Notes under the pieces: generated by a model
What the model was told of the DNA's origin: nothing
The model's input: the letters and a program-made list of their open reading frames with translations, nothing else
Database searches by the model: none
NCBI RefSeq assembly: GCF_963678975.1
Contig: NC_089281.1
Coordinates: 27,508,765-27,572,764 of the forward strand
Direction of reading: 5' to 3'
Length of the DNA stretch: 64,000 bases
Source of the DNA: Dysidea avara
Lineage: Eukaryota; Porifera; Demospongiae; Dictyoceratida; Dysideidae
In this document: piece by piece, positions 2,780 to 50,800 of the stretch
Numbering within the stretch: the stretch's first letter is position 1
How the letters are laid out: each line of letters begins with the position of its first letter
Translations under genes and position numbers: made by a program

Positions 2780-5700
2780 ATGATGGAGGAAATACCGTTA
2801 GTTGTTATTCTACTCAATGTAACAGTGATAGATTGTATCGTTTAGATCTGTTGAGGGTGAGGTAGAAACATTGTCGGAGAAGATACAAAGCATTCTTGAC
2901 AACAGTAAAACTTACTTGCGGCGACTGGCGGTGGTATGGAGCGAATTGGGTTTATGTGAGGCCCAGAGACAGCCTAGGCGCGATGAATTCGAGAAACATT
3001 TACTGAAGGAACTTACCGAATTGTTGGCGGCAATGACAGATGAAGAAGAGAAGATGAAGATCAAAGTTATTGCAGATATCAATGAGTACAAACTCGAGTT
3101 AGACAATTTGTGTAATGAAATGAAGAGAAGTGTTGATATGGTGAGTTGATGTATTATTATGTTTCAATTATATGTACTACACTACAGCCTGCAGAAGAAC
3201 TGCCATTAGTTGCCAGAGTGAAGTACTTAAAATCTAAAGTCGATGCCCTTAGAACAGTGAGTCTGTTTCATAAACGCATCGTTTAAACATGTACAAAATT
3301 AGGAAAAACATGAGCGCGTGAAAAGGTTAAAACGGTTGGCTGAAATGGAAGTCGCACTATGTGAAATTCTTGGTGGACGAATGGTCATTGTTCCTTTCTA
3401 CAAGAGCAAGGAATTACCTACGGAAGAGAAACTGAAAGAGTTTTTAGACATTATTGAAAAGATGGAAGCAAAAAAGGTTGGTAGAACTGACTTAAAGAGT
3501 CTTTGCTTTTATTCCAATATTTTAGGGCGCTAACCAAACCACATTCTTTGCCTTCCGAGAGAAGATTATAGAACTGTGGACACAGTTAGATTTGCAGCCA
3601 TGTGATGAAAGACAGCAGTCTATTTTAGATGGTGACATTAAAAAGTTTGTTCTTTGCCAAGAAAATATGGACTACTTGTCTGTACTACAGCAAGAGGTAA
3701 ATAAACACATGACTTGAGTAATAAGATGTCCACTAATGACCACAGTAACGAAGTGGTCTAGTCGTGGAATACAATTTAGCTATGTTTGGGACCTATTTAA
3801 CATGATAATAAGAGGTCTTAGAGGTCACGAAGTATATGCAGGGATTTTTCTAGAAAATAAATTCGGGGGGGGGGGGGGGGGGATCCGAGTTTTTCAGAAA
3901 TTGAGAGGGGGCAGAACTTAAATTAGGCTAAATTTGTTTTATTGTAGCTAGCCATCGACTAAATTTTATGATTTTTATCATTGTTTCATCATTGGGCAGA
4001 GTTCAGGGGAAGACAAAATGCCCCCCCTGCCCCCCCCCCCCCCTGCCCCCCCCCCCCTAGAAAAATCCCTGATATCAAGAGTTCATAATATATATACTAA
4101 GGAGAGTATCCTACTCTCATATACCCCTGTAGAAAGGCGTATCGTGAAATTATGACGTAACGACAAGATGTTGCGGTTTGTGACGTACGGGAAGCCGTAA
4201 AAGTGCAAGCACTGTTTCACGCTTGCGACGCTCAGGATAGCCATATTCGCGAATGGCCTAGTAAGAAACGCCTACAAAGCGGTCTTAACCCATGAAGGAA
4301 CGATTGTAGTTCGGTGAGAAACGTTTAGAGCTGGAGTTAATTTGGTTGCTAGCGACATTGGTAGGCACGTGTTCAATCGATACCATGTTCAACTAATGAC
4401 ATCATTAATTATACAAAGAAAAATGGACGAACTCAGAAGTGTTATGTCATAACTTCACGATACGCCTTTCTACAGGGGTATATGAGAGTAGGATACTCTC
4501 CTTAGTATATATATTATGAACTCTTGCTGATATGTATACCTTTTCTACATTTGAGAAATAGTTGTCATGGTCACTCTAACAAGGTGGTCTTATTGATAAA
4601 GTCCTTAAGTGCACCTACTTAAGGTTACAGAATAGTTTAAAATGTGTGGGCGGAACAAATTACAAAACCTGCTTTAAACCAAGCAGGGATAAATAATTTC
4701 AACAGCTGTGTTGTGTTAGCAATACAACTAATTGTGCTTGTTTATTTTTACTACAGAACAACGACTGTTCTTGGGTGTGTGGTCTACAATAGAGCGATGT
4801 TTTATAACGCTGCTGCCGCCAAAACCAGACTAACAGATTACTGAATCCTTATAATTTCAACACAAGTTACTAAACAACTAAAATATCTAGGTCCTGTGGA
4901 AGCGATAGTAGTTTTTTTGGGTGAAACAAGCTCTTTGAAGGCTTGTATCCGAGTCACTGGGAGAAACACGCCAAAAATGCTTCCACAGGACCTAACAAAT
5001 TTAATATACAGTATCACTATGCCCCAGAAAAGCCAATAGAGCCTACAGCTTTTGCTGTATTTGGCAGCGGAAAAACATGATAGTGACAGCATGATAGTGA
5101 CAGCTGGAGCTGAGCAATGTATGGGCTGGCTTACTTGTGTTACTACAACAAATTGTAGTGTTCCACCTGCCTCAAAACTACACTGTAGCTACATAAAAAC
5201 ATTAAATATGAAGGGCTTCACCTTCATTTAAAACTTTTCCCTGCTGCTAGACTGGTTTTATGGGCTTCTCAAAAAGTATCGATAGGCATTCAAAATTTTG
5301 AATGATTGCCCATGACTATACCGTAACCTTAACATGGTCATCGTAATGAGGTGGTCTTATTAAGTAAGGTCTTGACATGATCATTATAATGAGGTGGTCT
5401 TGTTAATGGGTTCACAAAGTATATAGCAATGTTTGGGACCCACTTGACATGACCACTGGTTTATGGGGTTTTTTCCTGAACTCTTGTAGCTTGAAAAGGA
5501 GTTTTCACAACTGGAATTTAAAGCAGCTGCATTACGGGAGAAGGTGATGTCATTGTGGACAAGGTTAGCGGTTCCTGTTGAGGAGAGAGATGAATTTAAT
5601 CAGAACCATGCAGGAAGTCATATAAAGACCATAAAAGCAGTAAGGTTTTCATGTTCTTGAGCATGCAACATAACCTGTCTAGTGTGTTTGGCCCACCAAG

Positions 5701-42400: not shown

Positions 42401-44469
42401 CCATCTTTTCTCTGTAGTGTGGTCTCAATCAGATGCACACATGAGGCACAACTCATCCCTCCAACCTGCAGATAAAAGGGATCTTATAGAGGGGTCTATT
42501 TACTGTTGCTTTCTACATTTAGTCAGTTTATTAAATGCGCTCACTATTTGAGGTGTAAAGTTTAACCAGCAAATATGATAATTATGTTTATTGCCTTACA
42601 ATCAGGTCCAGTTTGTGCTCAGTTGGTGTCTCATGCATTCCAAGCAGCTCAGCACCAAATCCAATATCTTGTATATACTGCACTAAAGTATTAGGATTAG
42701 TAATGTCTGGATTATAAGTGATATCAGCCTTCTCTGCCAGTAGTGCCACCTTAATTTGCTGCACACCTGTGTAACAATGACTCACTACGTACATGTGGTG
42801 TTTACTGTTCACCTGGCTTTTTTATAATACTGGTTTCTATTTTATTCACACATGACGCACAAGACATCCCTGTCACACGCAGGTATACTCTGTGACTGTC
42901 AGAAGCTTCCAATTTCTCCATGTCAATTAGCAAAGGTTTCTTTTCTTCACTGTTGTAAGACTTCTCTCGTTTCTTGCTTTTCTTTATAACAACATCATCT
43001 TCCATGATGTAATCAACAGAACTCTCCTGGGACTTGTGCTTTTTGGTAGATGGTCGTCTTGGATTGGAAGGCGGTGGACTTTCTGATACATCTAAATGAA
43101 TAACACTTTTTGCCTGGATTGAAAATACACACCAGTGTGTACGTTACTTAGTGTAACTAGAAGGATAAGTTTTTCTAGGTTCGAGGATGTAAGAAGAATT
43201 TAAATGTACAATGCATTAAGTCATGAATACAACAAAGCTACAAAACACTGCCATATAAAAGTTTTAAGCTGTCTTATAAGTAATCACTAGCAATATATAT
43301 ATACAAAGGATGTGACTTTTGAAAAATGAGTACCAAGTCTAAAATGTCAAAGACAGCAAAGCATTATGAATAAACATTTTTGTGTGAATTCAACTATGAA
43401 AATATAGGGATTCAAATCTATATAAATGGGTGAAGCAAACTTTGTGCTATTAACTTTTACCACATATATCACACAGTACACTAAACTTACTATGGATATA
43501 GGTCACATCAAAGCCCAAACTACGAATGGCATTTTGTAAACCTTCAATGGAGCAATGACGAGAATCAAATGTCACAGTAGCTTCGGTCTTCTCTAGAGAT
43601 ACTTTAACACTCAGTACGTCCATCACGCCATTCTCAATCATGCCCACACAAGACTGACATTTCATACCAGTAATCCCCAAACGCACTGTCAAAACTGAAT
43701 TCAAACTATCCATCATTTTGTCGCTGCTTCCAATTCCAATGCTATCTAGCAGACTATCAGCAGTGTTATCAAAACTCCCATGCAGGGTAACTTCGAAGCC
43801 CAGATCTTCAATAGCATCTTTCAATTGATGTTCAGTGATTACATGACTGTCATATTCAACTGTTGCACTGTTCTGCTCTAGCGAAGCTGTCACTATGGAT
43901 ACTCCACCCATCTTACTAATGTTGTTCTCTATTATATTCACACAGTTCATACACACCATTCCCTGTACTCCTAAAGTCAACACTTTGATTGAAGTGTTGG
44001 CAGTGTCACGGTACGTGATGACTGTCAGAGGGATGGCATCAAACCCTGCATCACTGATGGCTGCTGTTATCTGTTCCACGTTGACCAATCTTGGCTTGTA
44101 CTCTACCAGAGCTTCATTATGGTGTAGAGAGATTACTACGTAATTGACATTATCAACTTTACTAACACACGATTCTGTCAGCTTGACACAAGACTCGCAG
44201 GTCATGCCGTGAACAGAAATGATTGCCACGTTATTATGGACGTTTAGTGGCATGGAAACGTGTCCAGACAACTCGTGTGATTGTAGTACGGTCTCTACTG
44301 TATCATGGTCCACGTGAGAGTGGATATCAAGCTGCAGCAAGTGGTGGTAATTGCCGGTAGAGTCGCTGTATTGCTTAACTGCGCTGATCCTTTCAACATC
44401 AGATATCTGCTCGCGTAGTTTTCTACTGGCGACTCCATTAATGATGTACAAAATCACTTGACTTGCCAT
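36493..44469 (-). CDS. ATP7: Copper-transporting P1B-type ATPase, ATP7A/ATP7B orthologue
   Basis: Pumps Cu(I) from cytosol into the secretory pathway or out of the cell. The N-terminus carries five heavy-metal-associated domains: GMTCESC, GMVCMNC, GMKCQSC (all in exon 43480-44469), GMSCASC (about 42860) and GMSCASC (about 42450). A preceding segment (residues 5-65) has a similar fold pattern without CxxC. The pump core has TGEA ([11 protein letters not shown]), the CPC helix ([15 protein letters not shown]), [27 protein letters not shown] and [20 protein letters not shown]. It ends [14 protein letters not shown] at 36493-36495. The tail is much shorter than in human ATP7B and lacks a dileucine signal. 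The TM5-TM6 lumenal loop is long and rich in His and Asn ([20 protein letters not shown]). Start ATG 44469. Head-to-head with SFXN. About 17 short exons. Confidence 0.92.
36856..37115. mobile_element. Tc1/pogo-type MITE in an ATP7 intron
   Basis: The ends CAGTGAAACCTCTTCT and GGGGTTTCGCTG form diverged inverted repeats, and the left end is preceded by TA. The interior shares GTGCTCTGATTTCAG and repeated TGTCTTGATTTTAGAGG blocks with the family at 32110-32382. Just to the left is a 19-bp tandem duplication (CTTCACTGGTGTAACTA). Confidence 0.55.
40868..41100. other. ATP7 intronic stretch without features
   Basis: This intron lies between the exon encoding [16 protein letters not shown] (40819-40868) and the one encoding [20 protein letters not shown]. 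Nothing beyond splice sites is recognised. Other ATP7 introns hold short TG/CA tracts, for example 37919-37970, 39574-39612, 41229-41262 and 41415-41447. Confidence 0.5.
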
Positions 44470-44476
44470 CACTTCT

Positions 44477-44724
44477 TAGTCTCGTGCCCAGACCCCACCC
44501 AGGTCTGGTGACTTACGCTATGTTTTTGGGCCCGCCGCCATATTGTTTACGCATTTGTATCCATAGCTGTAGTCGGCCATTTTCCTAGTTCCAGCCTATC
44601 AAATCGCGTTGTACCTGAATCAAGGCGTCCGATTGGTCAGAAAAGAAAAATGGCGTAGGGCCCAAAACTCCTGCGAATGTCACCAGACCCACAACGCAGT
44701 GGGTGGGGTCTGGGCACTAGACTA
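44477..44724. mobile_element. 248-bp MITE at the ATP7 start codon, 8-bp target duplication
   Basis: The terminal inverted repeats are TAGTCTCGTGCCCAGACCCC and its counterpart GGGGTCTGGGCACTAGACTA. The arms continue through CTGGTGAC and GGGCCC blocks. Exact 8-bp direct repeats TCACTTCT flank it (44469-44476 and 44725-44732), which fits a hAT-type insertion. The left duplication ends on the A of the ATP7 ATG (44469), so the element lies 7 bp upstream of the ATP7 coding sequence, inside the ATP7/SFXN promoter region. Confidence 0.85.
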
Positions 44725-44732
44725 TCACTTCT

Positions 44733-44870
44733 AGGCTCGCTTTTAGGTACACGTGAGCCAATAGTAAACAAATTATACGGGAATACGGCTCAGAATACGG
44801 ATACCGGTATACTTTGTGTTCAACAATGGATTTGTGTCGCTAAAGAACGATAAATAATAAATAGAGAGTA
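44733..44870. promoter_or_regulatory. Remaining ATP7/SFXN divergent promoter and SFXN 5' leader with a short uORF
   Basis: About 140 bp of unique sequence separate the MITE from the SFXN ATG at 44871. A six-codon upstream ORF (ATG at 44826, MDLCR, TAA at 44841-44843) lies 27 bp before the SFXN start. The transcription start is unknown, so whether the uORF is in the mRNA is uncertain. Confidence 0.4.
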
Positions 44871-47800
44871 ATGGCTAGTGTATTACCGTGGGACCAGTCC
44901 ACGTTTACTGGCAGACTCAACTACTATGCTCGCGTGACTGATCCACGACTCATGTTCGCATCTACCAGCACCCTGGACAGAGTAGAACAAATTGTAAAAG
45001 CTAAAAAGTAAGAAGGGTGTGTTGTCAACTGTACTATGTAAATTGTGTATAAAAGGTTCATCCAGATCAAGATCCAGATTTATTCCAGACTTGTAATTTA
45101 GCCCCCACCAAAACACTGTTTCAATTCAATTCTTTATAGTGCAATGTTACAGGTGTACATGGTTGTTGTTCGACACATTGCCGTGTCACATCACAAGGGG
45201 GTGTCACTCGGGCTCTTGCTGTAGGTCGATCTGCGACCGCGGTCAAACTCTTAAGTCAACGGTCAAGGCCACAAAATAGCTCTTACAGTGGGTCAAGGGT
45301 CAAGACGATACGGAAGGTTAGAAACCCACAATCGAAAACTATACGTAGCTATTATCAAGTTTACGGAATTATACGCAACTCACAAGAAGTAAGGGTCTCC
45401 AAGAAAATGTTTCAAAGCTCCAACAGGCATTTTGCCGTTGATTTTTCTCTGCCAGCTGTTGGTAGCACGCACCAAGAAAATATTGTACTAGGTTACAAGC
45501 GCAGGTGCGTATTGGAAAATAGAGAAATAAGTGGAGGTCAAAAGTTCAACAAGAAATGCTCAAATCACAGGTCAAAGATGATAAACGCTGCTAATCAAGG
45601 GTCAAGGTGAAATTTTCCCTGGTCAAGACTTTGACCGCGGCCGCAGATCTACCTACAGTGTGTTCCGACGTGACACCCCCTTGCATCATATGGTCTTATA
45701 GTCTTGCATGGCCAGACCGCTTTTTTCTCTTTGTCATTGGGTAGGGAGAAAAAAGGGACTGGTCCGGTTTGAATCCCACACTCGTCTTGACACTACCTGG
45801 ATAATTGGGTAGTGTTAACCAAAGAAACGTGATACATCAAAGATGCGAGCGGCTTTGGTTAACACTACCCAATTATCCAGGTACAGAGGATTGCGGAATC
45901 TTTGCAATACAGGAAGTCACCAGAAACATGACCTATCAAAGTTGTGGTGATGCATTTCAAAGTTGATGGATCAAGTTTTTCGGTTGGCCCTTTATGGTTT
46001 TGTTGCAAACATTCCACAAACCTCTGTAGTATCAAGATGAGTGTGGGATTCAAACCGGACCAGACCCTTTTTTCTCCCTACCCAATGACAAAGAGAAAAA
46101 GGCGGTCTGGCCATGCGAGACTATGTGTCACATTGGTAGGGTCCGAAAACCGAAAAATCAACTGTTACAAATTGATCTCCCTACCATTGTGGGATGTTCA
46201 TCCTAGCGTACCATTGCTAGATCCATCATGAAACCGGATGCACGATTGTTGTCTTCCCAAAAATATCGCTTTTTGTATCTCACGAGATGCAAAATTTATT
46301 TTTTAAATTTCATGCTGCACACAAAGGAACAGATGAAACTTGCTACTTAGCCAGATCTTATCTAGATTTGTTGTAGTTAAAAAGTACACACAGCAACAAG
46401 CAAATGATGAGCTACATTTACGGCACAGGGCTCCATTCTTTTAAAATTACAAATCAAAACACAAACTTTTGAATTCAAGCTGCCCTACCAACCAAGACAA
46501 GGAAAACCAATATTCTTCACAGTATTGTGCTAAGGTTGGGTGCATAGTCTGTCTATGTTGTAAGTCTGGAAAGGATCTGAGACTTCTCACCATCTGGGTG
46601 ACTAGTTTCTGGAATTATATTGTGCCTTCTAGCCATTTCCAATGCTTCTGCAGCCACAATACCCATCAATGACGGACTGGAACAATGGCAAAAGATGTCC
46701 CTGGACAGTTGGTGCCAGTGGTTGTCAATTATTATTTCATCGATACCCTCCACACGTCGTTCGAAGCTCTAGACCACTGGAGGAAGCTCTAGACCACTGG
46801 AGGCAGCTAAATTGTCCAAAACTGACTTCACCTCTAATGCTCCACAGTGGCTTCAAATCTTTACCAGATCACCCTACAGCACCAACATGTTGCAGAATAT
46901 TCAAAAATAAACTACACAAAATCTTTCATTTTCGAATCAAGCTAGGTGGGGCTCCTGGCGAGCTGCTGGAATACTACATCATATGAAATTACAAAAACAA
47001 CGACTGCTACTATTGCCAAACATTTTGGTTCATCTTTTATCATCATTCTAAACAAAATTAGGTGATCAATGCGGCATCAGAAGTGCTGGAAGGAACTTCA
47101 GCATTATTGAGAGAATCCTATGAAATGAAACACGAAAATTTTGACTCTCGTCACCCAGATGGTGAGAAGTCTCAGATCATTTCCAGACTAACAGCATAGA
47201 TAGACTATGCACCCAACCTTATCGGAATACTGTGAAGAATAGTTGTCTTTACTTGTCTTGGCTGGTAGGGCAGCTTGAATTTGAAAAATCATGCTTCGTT
47301 TTGTGATTTTTGAAAGAAAGCATCCCTGTGCTGGAAATCAAACAAATTATTTGCTTATTGCTTTGTGTAATTTTTAACTACAACAGCTCTAGATAAGATC
47401 TGTCTAAGTAGCAAGTTTCATCCGGTCATTTGTCTGGAGCACGAAATTTAAAAAATAAATTTTACGTCTTGTGAGATATAAAATTCAATATTTCTGTGAA
47501 GACAACAATTGTGCTTCCACTTTCAGGGTGGATCTAGCAATGGTATGCTACGATGAGCATCCCACAATGGTAGGGGGATCAATTTGTAAAAGTTTTTTTT
47601 TTGTTTGCGGACCCTAACATTGGTGGAATGAATTTCCAAACGACCTTTTTTCATCTTCCAACTATTTATGATCATTTGTTGTTATATGAGTAATAGTTGT
47701 ACTGTGTAATCAACTTGTTATGTGCATGTCTTGTTTAGTTTTATTTTTGTTTGTAGTTGTAATTGTATACTTATTTCTTTGTTGGTTTTTGTAATGTGTA

Positions 47801-50800
47801 TGTTTGTGTGTGCACTCCGGTAAGGAAGAATGGCTGTGCCGATTACCGTGAGGTTAAATCAATAATCAATCAATCAAAGGTTGTAGAGCATTAAAAAGCA
47901 TTTTTTGCATTATAATAATAGTTTTTTTTACAAATACAGCATTTCAAAAGAAAAAGAAATCCTTTGTGCAATAATACACCTATCAATATTATCCTTCACT
48001 ACCCCGGCTCCTCCGGGGCAAAGGTGGGAATTTGACTTTTTCAAATTCCCACCAATGGGACATGGCGAGTGGTCTAATCTCCACCCAGTCTAAAAGCATT
48101 ATTTATTAAATTTTCCAAAGTTAGACATTCCAGCATAATTTTTAAATTTCACAAAAATGACCTTTAAAGATAGAGTAGTAATTGCCGATCTCAGAAACAT
48201 ATAGTTTATTGGGGATGGAATTGGCTACTTTGGCATTCATGGCCCCAAGCACAGAAAAAAGCAATATTCAAATTTCCTCTGAGGCTCCTCATACATTTTT
48301 AAAGCAAAATGGCACACAATTAAATTATAGTGTTGCACCGATATGACGTTTTGCTGATATTCCGATAACCAATATTGAATAATATTTTCAAGCCAATAAA
48401 CATATGCTAGACAGGCCAGTGGATGTTCATCGAAGAGTAGGAAGGGAAAGAAGCCCTGGGTATATTCAGGCATACAAAGAGCTGAAATGGGTAAACTTAC
48501 ATGCAGGGCTGGTGCAACTGAAGCAGCAAAATAATTCATGAAAAAACTGGGGTTTACCATCAATGAAAGTACAATGAGATCCACAAAGAAAGATCACTTG
48601 GATAAACAATATGAAAGAAAGGAAGATGATTTGACAGTCTCCTAGCTGCCAGTTAAAAAAGAGGGAGGCCACTCCTTCTGGGGAAGAAGCTTGATGAAGC
48701 AGTGCAGGAATACATACTGAAGCTCAGAGATCATGGGTGTGTCATAAATACCACGGTTGTGATAGCTGTGGCAAGAGGTTTGGGAACAGTGTTGGAGTGA
48801 ACAAGGCTTGCTAAATATGGTGGACCAGCTACATTATTGATACCTTTGGCTAAATCCTTGTTGAAAAGAAAGGATTTCACCAAACAAAGAGCCACGACAA
48901 AGAACAATCCACCTCAAGATGATTTGGAAAAGATCAAGAATTCATTTCTTACTGAAGCGGTGGAAACTGTTGATATAAATGGGATTAAATGACATGGACT
49001 ATGGACAAAAGAGGAAAGAAAAGAATTGCAATTGAAGGGTATCAAGACAAACGACAGATTACTGCTGTCGTGTGGTAGTCTTGTGGGGGAACTCCTGCCA
49101 AAGCAATTGATTTATGCTGGGAAAACCAGTCGTTGCCATTCTGCTTATCAGTTTACACAAGATTGGCTGATCTCTCATACTGAGAACCATTGGGCTAATG
49201 AAACCACCATGTTAAAATATATAGAAGAGGTGATAGTTCTATATGTGGAAAACAAAAGAGAATCACTTGACCTAGACACTGCGTTGGCCATTTTCGATCA
49301 CTTTAAAGGACAACTAACAGAGAGGGTAACAAGTGCACTTGAAGAAAACAACATTCATTCTGTACAGATCCCAACTGCATACACAGGACTTCTACAGCCA
49401 ATGGACATCTCTGTAAATAAAGTCGTAAAATCATTTCTGCGAAGCAAATTTTCAAAGTGGTATTCTGACAAACTGACGGAGCTACCTTTCAACTGCAAGG
49501 ATGAAATGTGTGGGAGGAAAGTGGATTGTAGACATTTTTGAGTACTTAGCAAGATAACCCACAGATAATTGTACATGGTTTCAGGCATGCTGGAGTATTC
49601 AATTCTGGATGATGATGAGTTACCAGATTACAATAATAATGACGAGGATTCTGACCTTGATGAAGATAGTGTTGATGAAGCAAGTGATGAAGACATTGTG
49701 GATACAATAAGAAGTGGGGGAAGCAAGTTCGCTTATTGTGTCTGCTGTTTATACAGCTTCTGAATCATTTGATAGTGAATCAGATGATACATCAGCACTT
49801 CAAATTATCATAAGTTCTGACGATGAAGATTAACGACTACACAGAAATACAATTTAAACAATTGATCATTTACATTTATACATAGACACAATTGTATTGT
49901 AGTATACTGCTATTGTAAATTGGTAATGATTATTGTAAACAACATTATATCACTTGCATGTTATGCTGGGATGTACAGACTAATGTAACTGTTGTATTCG
50001 GTTCCTGTGGTGCCACACTCTTTTCAGTTTCTGAATCTCCTTTGGCTCCCCATGAAATTTCAATTTACAAGGAATTTCTAGTCCCCCTTGTGCCAAGTCC
50101 GACGAATACCATCGTTGTTCAGTTACTGTAGCCTTAATGTCTCCTCCTCACAGGATAAACATGCTACAACACCTGGAAATTTTCTTTGGAAGGTGGTCAA
50201 CTATCACACCTGAGCCAGGCTTCTTTAATGCCACGGTATATCGATCTACCACATTTCCAGTTTCTCTTTCACACAGCAGCTCTTCTCCCAAAACTGCAGT
50301 CCACACTGTTCTGTAGACGTGATAACCCCTGATGCGCGAAGAAACAACAAATTCCATAATTGCGTGGACACACAAACGTGCTCTTATATTAGCAAAAACA
50401 AACGAGTAATTTAATATCATGAGTTAGCCATGTTGTGAGATTAAGTGTCGTATAATTTTATTTTCGCGTGTTATTCTGTCCACGAGAAATACCCGGTATA
50501 TGGTAACTATCCTATCTATAAAGTAAGCATTAGTTAATGCCTTTTGTCTGACTTACTTAGAAGTAATGCACCCGCCATGTCCAGCTTACTGAGGATCCCT
50601 ACACCAAGCTTCAGAGGTCTGATATGTAATTGAGCAATCGCTGCAAGTTAAACACGCTTCGTGCTGGGAATTTATGGAGAAATTTTCACGTAAAAAAACC
50701 CTCAAATACCAGAATGTCTACCAAGGGGTTGATATTTTGAAGAGGCCTTTCTCTTCAAAAATCAATTCCAAAGTCTCATTGTTCTTTAAAACAAATTCTT

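Follow-up and report, generated by a model that had tools for sequence, protein, structure and literature searches.

How did the start codon of a metal-pump gene come to lie at the very edge of a mobile element, and what does this do to the gene? The question arises in a window of 64,000 nucleotides from Dysidea avara (the whole stretch of DNA analysed here), in which the start codons of ATP7 and SFXN are 401 bp apart and a 248-bp element occupies 44477-44724 between them. The initial annotation proposed that this element was a MITE that had split a divergent promoter, and that everything directly upstream of the ATP7 coding sequence was therefore transposon-derived. As described below, there is indeed an insertion next to the ATP7 start, and it is a young one of an ordinary type. 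The landing of a transposon at a gene 5′ end is a well-known class of event; the locus is of interest as a clean case, in which a young transposon lies across the putative leader of a metal-pump gene, with the protein apparently untouched and the start codon preserved by the target duplication. Furthermore, if transcripts start inside the element, the locus would allow the study of a promoter replaced very recently, next to the old promoter DNA.

The insertion between ATP7 and SFXN

The identification of ATP7 holds. The gene reads along the minus strand, beginning with the ATG at 44469-44467. Its first open frame contains HMA domains (E 5e-34); the closest solved structures are copper-transporting P-type ATPases (E 3.7e-58 and 6.5e-57), and exons with the E1-E2 ATPase domain were also found. 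For SFXN, we placed the start at 44871 because residues 7-44 of exon 1 align with positions 7-44 of the SFXNs profile (E 1.3e-9). The element separates these two divergent genes, as had been proposed (Table 1). Leaving aside the element and one 8-bp duplication, the intergenic DNA amounts to 145 bp, of which 7 bp adjoin ATP7 and 138 bp adjoin SFXN. The native 138-bp stretch, with its CACGTG and CCAAT motifs, shows that describing everything upstream of ATP7 as transposon-derived was an overstatement.

Table 1. Positions of the insertion, the flanking genes and the element-borne motifs in the window.
Feature	Position	Strand	Remarks
ATP7 start codon, native context AGAAGTGATGG	44467..44469	-	
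Target site duplication, ATP7 side, ATCACTTCT	44468..44476		9 bp by the family rule, ninth base inferred; takes in the AT of the ATP7 ATG
In-frame TAA over the element/duplication junction	44476..44478	-	third codon 5′ of the ATG; frame opens E-V-M at 44475
MITE	44477..44724	.	248 bp, shortened form of the 264-bp family consensus
Left terminal inverted repeat, outer 25 nt	44477..44501	+	96% complementary
YY1-like (presumed) AATATGGCGGC toward ATP7	44534..44544	-	holds an upstream ATG (44541) opening MAAGPKT-stop; GCCGCCAT in 36/40 and CCGCCATATTG in 37/40 copies
AAAATGGCC with upstream ATG (44580)	44575..44583	-	opens a 20-codon frame, MADYSYGYKCVNNMAAGPKT-stop; GGCCATTTT in 36/40 copies
AAAATGGCG toward SFXN	44647..44655	+	opens MA-stop; 37/40 copies
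Right terminal inverted repeat, outer 25 nt	44700..44724	-	1 base unlike the family end
Target site duplication, SFXN side, TCACTTCT	44725..44732		8 bp; the first A has probably been lost, or coincides with the terminal A of the element
Native divergent-promoter DNA, SFXN side	44733..44870		138 bp, holds CACGTG and CCAAT
SFXN coding exon 1	44871..45008	+	profile match

The structure attributed to the element was confirmed. Its outer inverted-repeat arms are 25 nt long and complementary at 24 of 25 bases (96%), its inner arms are 43 nt long and 77% complementary, and two identical copies of TCACTTCT stand on either side of it. It is short, lacks transposase coding capacity (the longest ATG-opened frame in the ATP7 sense has 20 codons) and is one of many dispersed, near-identical copies with terminal inverted repeats, target duplications and, at other copies, empty sites. 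These are the properties of a MITE, the class to which it had been assigned.

The ATP7 ATG lies 8 bases from the edge of the element, with its A (44469) inside the duplication, as had been claimed. The duplication has put back the native AGAAGTG that precedes the ATG, and the ATP7 protein would therefore be unchanged; the initiation context is indeed the duplicated target, that is, native DNA preserved by duplication and not DNA brought in by the element. Since an in-frame TAA spans the junction, the ATP7 frame stops short of the element. The first 79 residues gave no profile match to four other HMA repeats of the protein, save for a 7-residue overlap shared by construction, and a single-sequence AlphaFold model had low confidence (mean pLDDT 38, and 28-36 over residues 1-80), so that we attach no weight to its strand order. 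It is therefore the frame and the stop that support the ATG as the true N-terminus. By a crude pyrimidine count, the AG adjoining the ATG falls outside the 12 best acceptor-like AGs. Such AGs are found at 44840, which is in native DNA and has the top pyrimidine score, and at 44332 and 44433, which are inside the exon; an upstream ATP7 exon could conceivably be spliced to one of these three.

A young family with 9-bp target duplications

Alignment of other genomic copies had been suggested as a check, and we searched the host genome (550.8 Mb in 108 contigs) for them. A 24-nt element end, with at most one mismatch, occurred 143 times in forward and 155 times in reverse orientation, and a reversed-pattern control occurred 0 and 0 times, so chance is excluded as the source of these matches. 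There are 298 end-match places altogether, of which 100 were listed, and 40 copies, a lower bound, were scored from 209 first-look candidates. The alignment of these 40 (the window copy and L009-L047, of which L012 and L013 have common flanks) gave a consensus of 264 bp, with inverted repeats of about 49 bp as judged by eye, from which the copies diverge by 0-3.0%. Within the window, neither blastn nor a search for element ends with up to 4 mismatches returned a second copy. Over its 248 aligned bases, the window copy differs from the consensus by two substitutions, and 16 bases are missing from it, which indicates that it is young.

The gaps among the 40 copies are concentrated in the two arms (consensus positions 26-46 and 228-236). 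In three longer copies (L048:501-4877; L049:101-1076, 976 bp; and L050:101-764, 664 bp), an insert sits within one terminal-repeat arm, around positions 31-43 of the consensus or at their mirror-image site, which is the stretch deleted in the window copy and some others. This part of the arm is possibly a weak spot formed by a hairpin loop. Separately, L012 and L013, about 40 kb apart on the same contig (G000 C3), have an identical insertion with identical flanks, and the pair is a local duplication of the region.

Evidence of mobility came from empty counterparts. The joined flanks of seven other copies (L013, L036, L037, L040, L042, L043 and L044) match an element-free locus elsewhere, across the site. 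For instance, the L044 site was found empty in L036 (62 columns, 98.4%), and for the L037 site the empty counterpart lies at 5191-5262 of the window (72 columns, 93%); the counterpart of L040 has a 2-base gap at the duplication. Given that 4 of 120 mismatched control joins also passed our loose limits, three of them by matching the locus that gave one flank and the remaining one (the L022 join in L016) by a match extending to base 51 only, we counted as firm only matches in another locus that reached base 59 or beyond. The L011 and L022 matches, which reach 50-51 only, were left out. At least 7 of the 39 other copies are placed in repeated DNA. Several (L036, L044, L042, L043 and L012/L013) have inserted into common other repeats, and in two such cases, a sister copy is only tens of bases away.

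The duplication length of the family is 9 bp, with exact 9-bp duplications in 29 of the 40 copies and at least 8 of 9 bp matching in 33. Exact 8-bp duplications were found in two copies (the window copy and L025), exact 10-bp duplications in two copies, and L036 has 7 of 8 bp. Thus, of the proposal that the element is flanked by exact 8-bp duplications, the identity of the two TCACTTCT copies stands, and the length gives way to the family rule. In the window copy, L025 and L036, the ninth base is an A adjoining the terminal A of the element, and the simplest reading of the 8-bp cases is that one A was lost from the AA pair; nine exact 9-bp duplications starting with A remain intact, and an occasional true 8-bp cut is conceivable. 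Since the family duplicates 9 bp, the original target at ATP7 was probably ATCACTTCT, so that both the A and the T of the ATG lay in it, where the initial annotation had included only the A. The family also has a weak palindromic target preference: three bases outside the duplication, 38 of the 64 symmetrised bases (from 32 sites) are C. The ATP7 site, with the preferred base on just one side, fits this preference in part, scoring at the 91st percentile among window positions and ranking 80th of the 873 positions in its neighbourhood.

Target duplications are 8 bp long in the hAT and P-element superfamilies and about 9 bp, with some range, in the Mutator superfamily (MULE). The duplication lengths of the present family depart from the former and agree with the latter, and it may possibly be regarded as a Mutator-type MITE family. 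If the element were a hAT- or P-type MITE that makes true 8-bp duplications, the 8/8 identity at the ATP7 site would be accounted for, but this explanation is largely refuted by the length counts, the few 8-bp cases being compatible with the loss of an A, and we consider it extremely unlikely. Maize Mu produces a 9-bp target duplication, prefers regions 5′ of ATGs and has the target consensus SW::SWNNNNNWS::WS (PMC2774946). Our family resembles Mu and non-autonomous MULE elements in its duplication, its weak palindromic target preference, its inverted repeats and, at ATP7, an insertion near a gene 5′ end, and it departs from the Mu target consensus in the preference itself (PMC2774946). Unlike those of Mu, its ends start TAGTCTCG, and a gene-start bias was not seen in a domain scan with no background set. 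The single long copy that was scanned linked no MULE transposase to the family.

One long copy, L048 (4377 bp), was scanned for a transposase as a candidate autonomous partner and was rejected, as its insert holds non-LTR retrotransposon frames (endonuclease and RT domains), making it a MITE that carries a retrotransposon. Given that 100 of the 298 ends were listed, and that a 425-bp pair on C4 is among them, a longer family element with a transposase may exist.

Possible consequences for ATP7

In our view, it is very probable that a non-autonomous transposon of this young 9-bp-duplication family inserted over the ATP7 start in the compact ATP7/SFXN promoter. With its transposase supplied elsewhere, the element would have entered a target overlapping the start codon within about 145 bp of divergent promoter, and the duplication would have restored the start-codon context, leaving the protein unaltered. 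With no more than 8 nt between the ATG and the edge of the element, any longer ATP7 leader would be element-derived, provided that the transcript has no upstream exon. ATP7 transcription would start either inside the element or in native DNA, now 256 bp further off; with a start in the native DNA, the four upstream ATGs carried by the element would probably depress ATP7 translation. As for the landing point, it would be explained most simply by chance, or by a mild preference for open promoters, and tolerated by selection; insertions that spare the protein are the ones that survive.

What the element contributes may be considered from its motifs. It carries ATGGCG-type motifs, which we take to be YY1-like, pointing outward in both arms and kept in 36-37 of the 40 copies, and ATGGCGGC was counted 28 times across 258 kb of sequence that included 21 element copies. 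In the ATP7 sense, it also holds four upstream ATGs (44580, 44564, 44554 and 44541), at least one of them in a strong context, and all four frames end before the ATP7 ATG. On the basis of these motifs and ATGs, the element could give ATP7 a new leader and perhaps a promoter. One possibility is that the element is a neutral or mildly harmful passenger, through which the native promoter reads, with the upstream ATGs cutting translation; the allele may then be polymorphic. The persistence of native CACGTG/CCAAT DNA beyond the element, the early-stopping upstream frames and the youth of the copy are all consistent with this, and we give it somewhat less than an even chance. That the element itself starts the transcription of ATP7, and perhaps of SFXN, through the outward motifs and has replaced the old promoter seems unlikely. 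The occurrence of these motifs in both arms and the 256 bp by which the old promoter DNA is now separated from the ATG favour such a role, but motif conservation says little in copies this young, 39 of 40 copies have no TATA-like box, and host-type Pfam domains lie near few of the copies (see below). A maize precedent may exist in hcf106::Mu1, in which a Mu element has reportedly inserted in a leader and its ends are said to give outward promoter activity to the host gene; the window element is likewise located in a putative leader, and its promoter activity is hypothetical. More broadly, the family might be a mobile two-way promoter cassette, with mirror-image YY1-like ATGGCG starts in both arms and very short frames, ending after a few codons, that serve as a translational brake. 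Every insertion would then bring an outward start together with its brake, and ATP7 would recently have come under such a unit, an idea that we find highly doubtful.

A further question is whether the family favours gene 5′ ends. We scanned all 181 of 181 ORFs of at least 65 aa lying mostly outside the element and within 1 kb of 38 copies. L012, being a duplicate of L013, was left out of this set, and the coverage at half of the loci (19 of 38) was about 0.51-0.62 kb a side. Domains found near copies were Pirin (L011), B-box/SH3 (L017), kinase (L047), rva_4/rve integrase (L021) and DUF4371 (L015), together with RVT_1 and HTH_8, which were not tied to a locus. Host-type domains were placed at three loci only and, as there was no background set, the scan shows only the absence of an obvious excess. 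Targeting of gene starts in the manner of Mu is suggested by the 9-bp duplication, shared with an element that prefers regions 5′ of ATGs (PMC2774946), as well as by the palindromic preference and by the L011 copy, located 0.4-0.5 kb upstream of an exon that encodes a Pirin domain. We nevertheless judge it improbable, considering the few gene domains near other copies in that scan, the copies in repeated DNA and the figures for chance. If the genome is assumed to have 20,000-40,000 genes and the family 40-209 copies, the expected number of its copies overlapping an ATG by chance is 0.02-0.17, and since the genome holds several families, one such landing is not remarkable.

Related and neighbouring elements

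Two other short elements, at L022:1097-1491 (395 bp) and L023:5134-5659 (526 bp), resemble the window family in their TAGTCT ends and in their duplications (9/9 and 8/9 bp) and differ from it in internal sequence and length. Just past SFXN exon 1, at 45698-46124 of the window, an inverted-repeat element has 99-nt arms (95%) with ends like TAGTCTYGCATGGCCAGACC and is perhaps a related family; we looked for a matching 9-bp duplication around it and saw none. Another inverted-repeat element, at 45194-45683, has 59-nt arms (81%) and ends in CAAGGGGGTGTCAC. Finally, an open frame at 48993-49538, some 4 kb on from SFXN exon 1, contains a DDE_1 transposase domain (E 2.5e-11).
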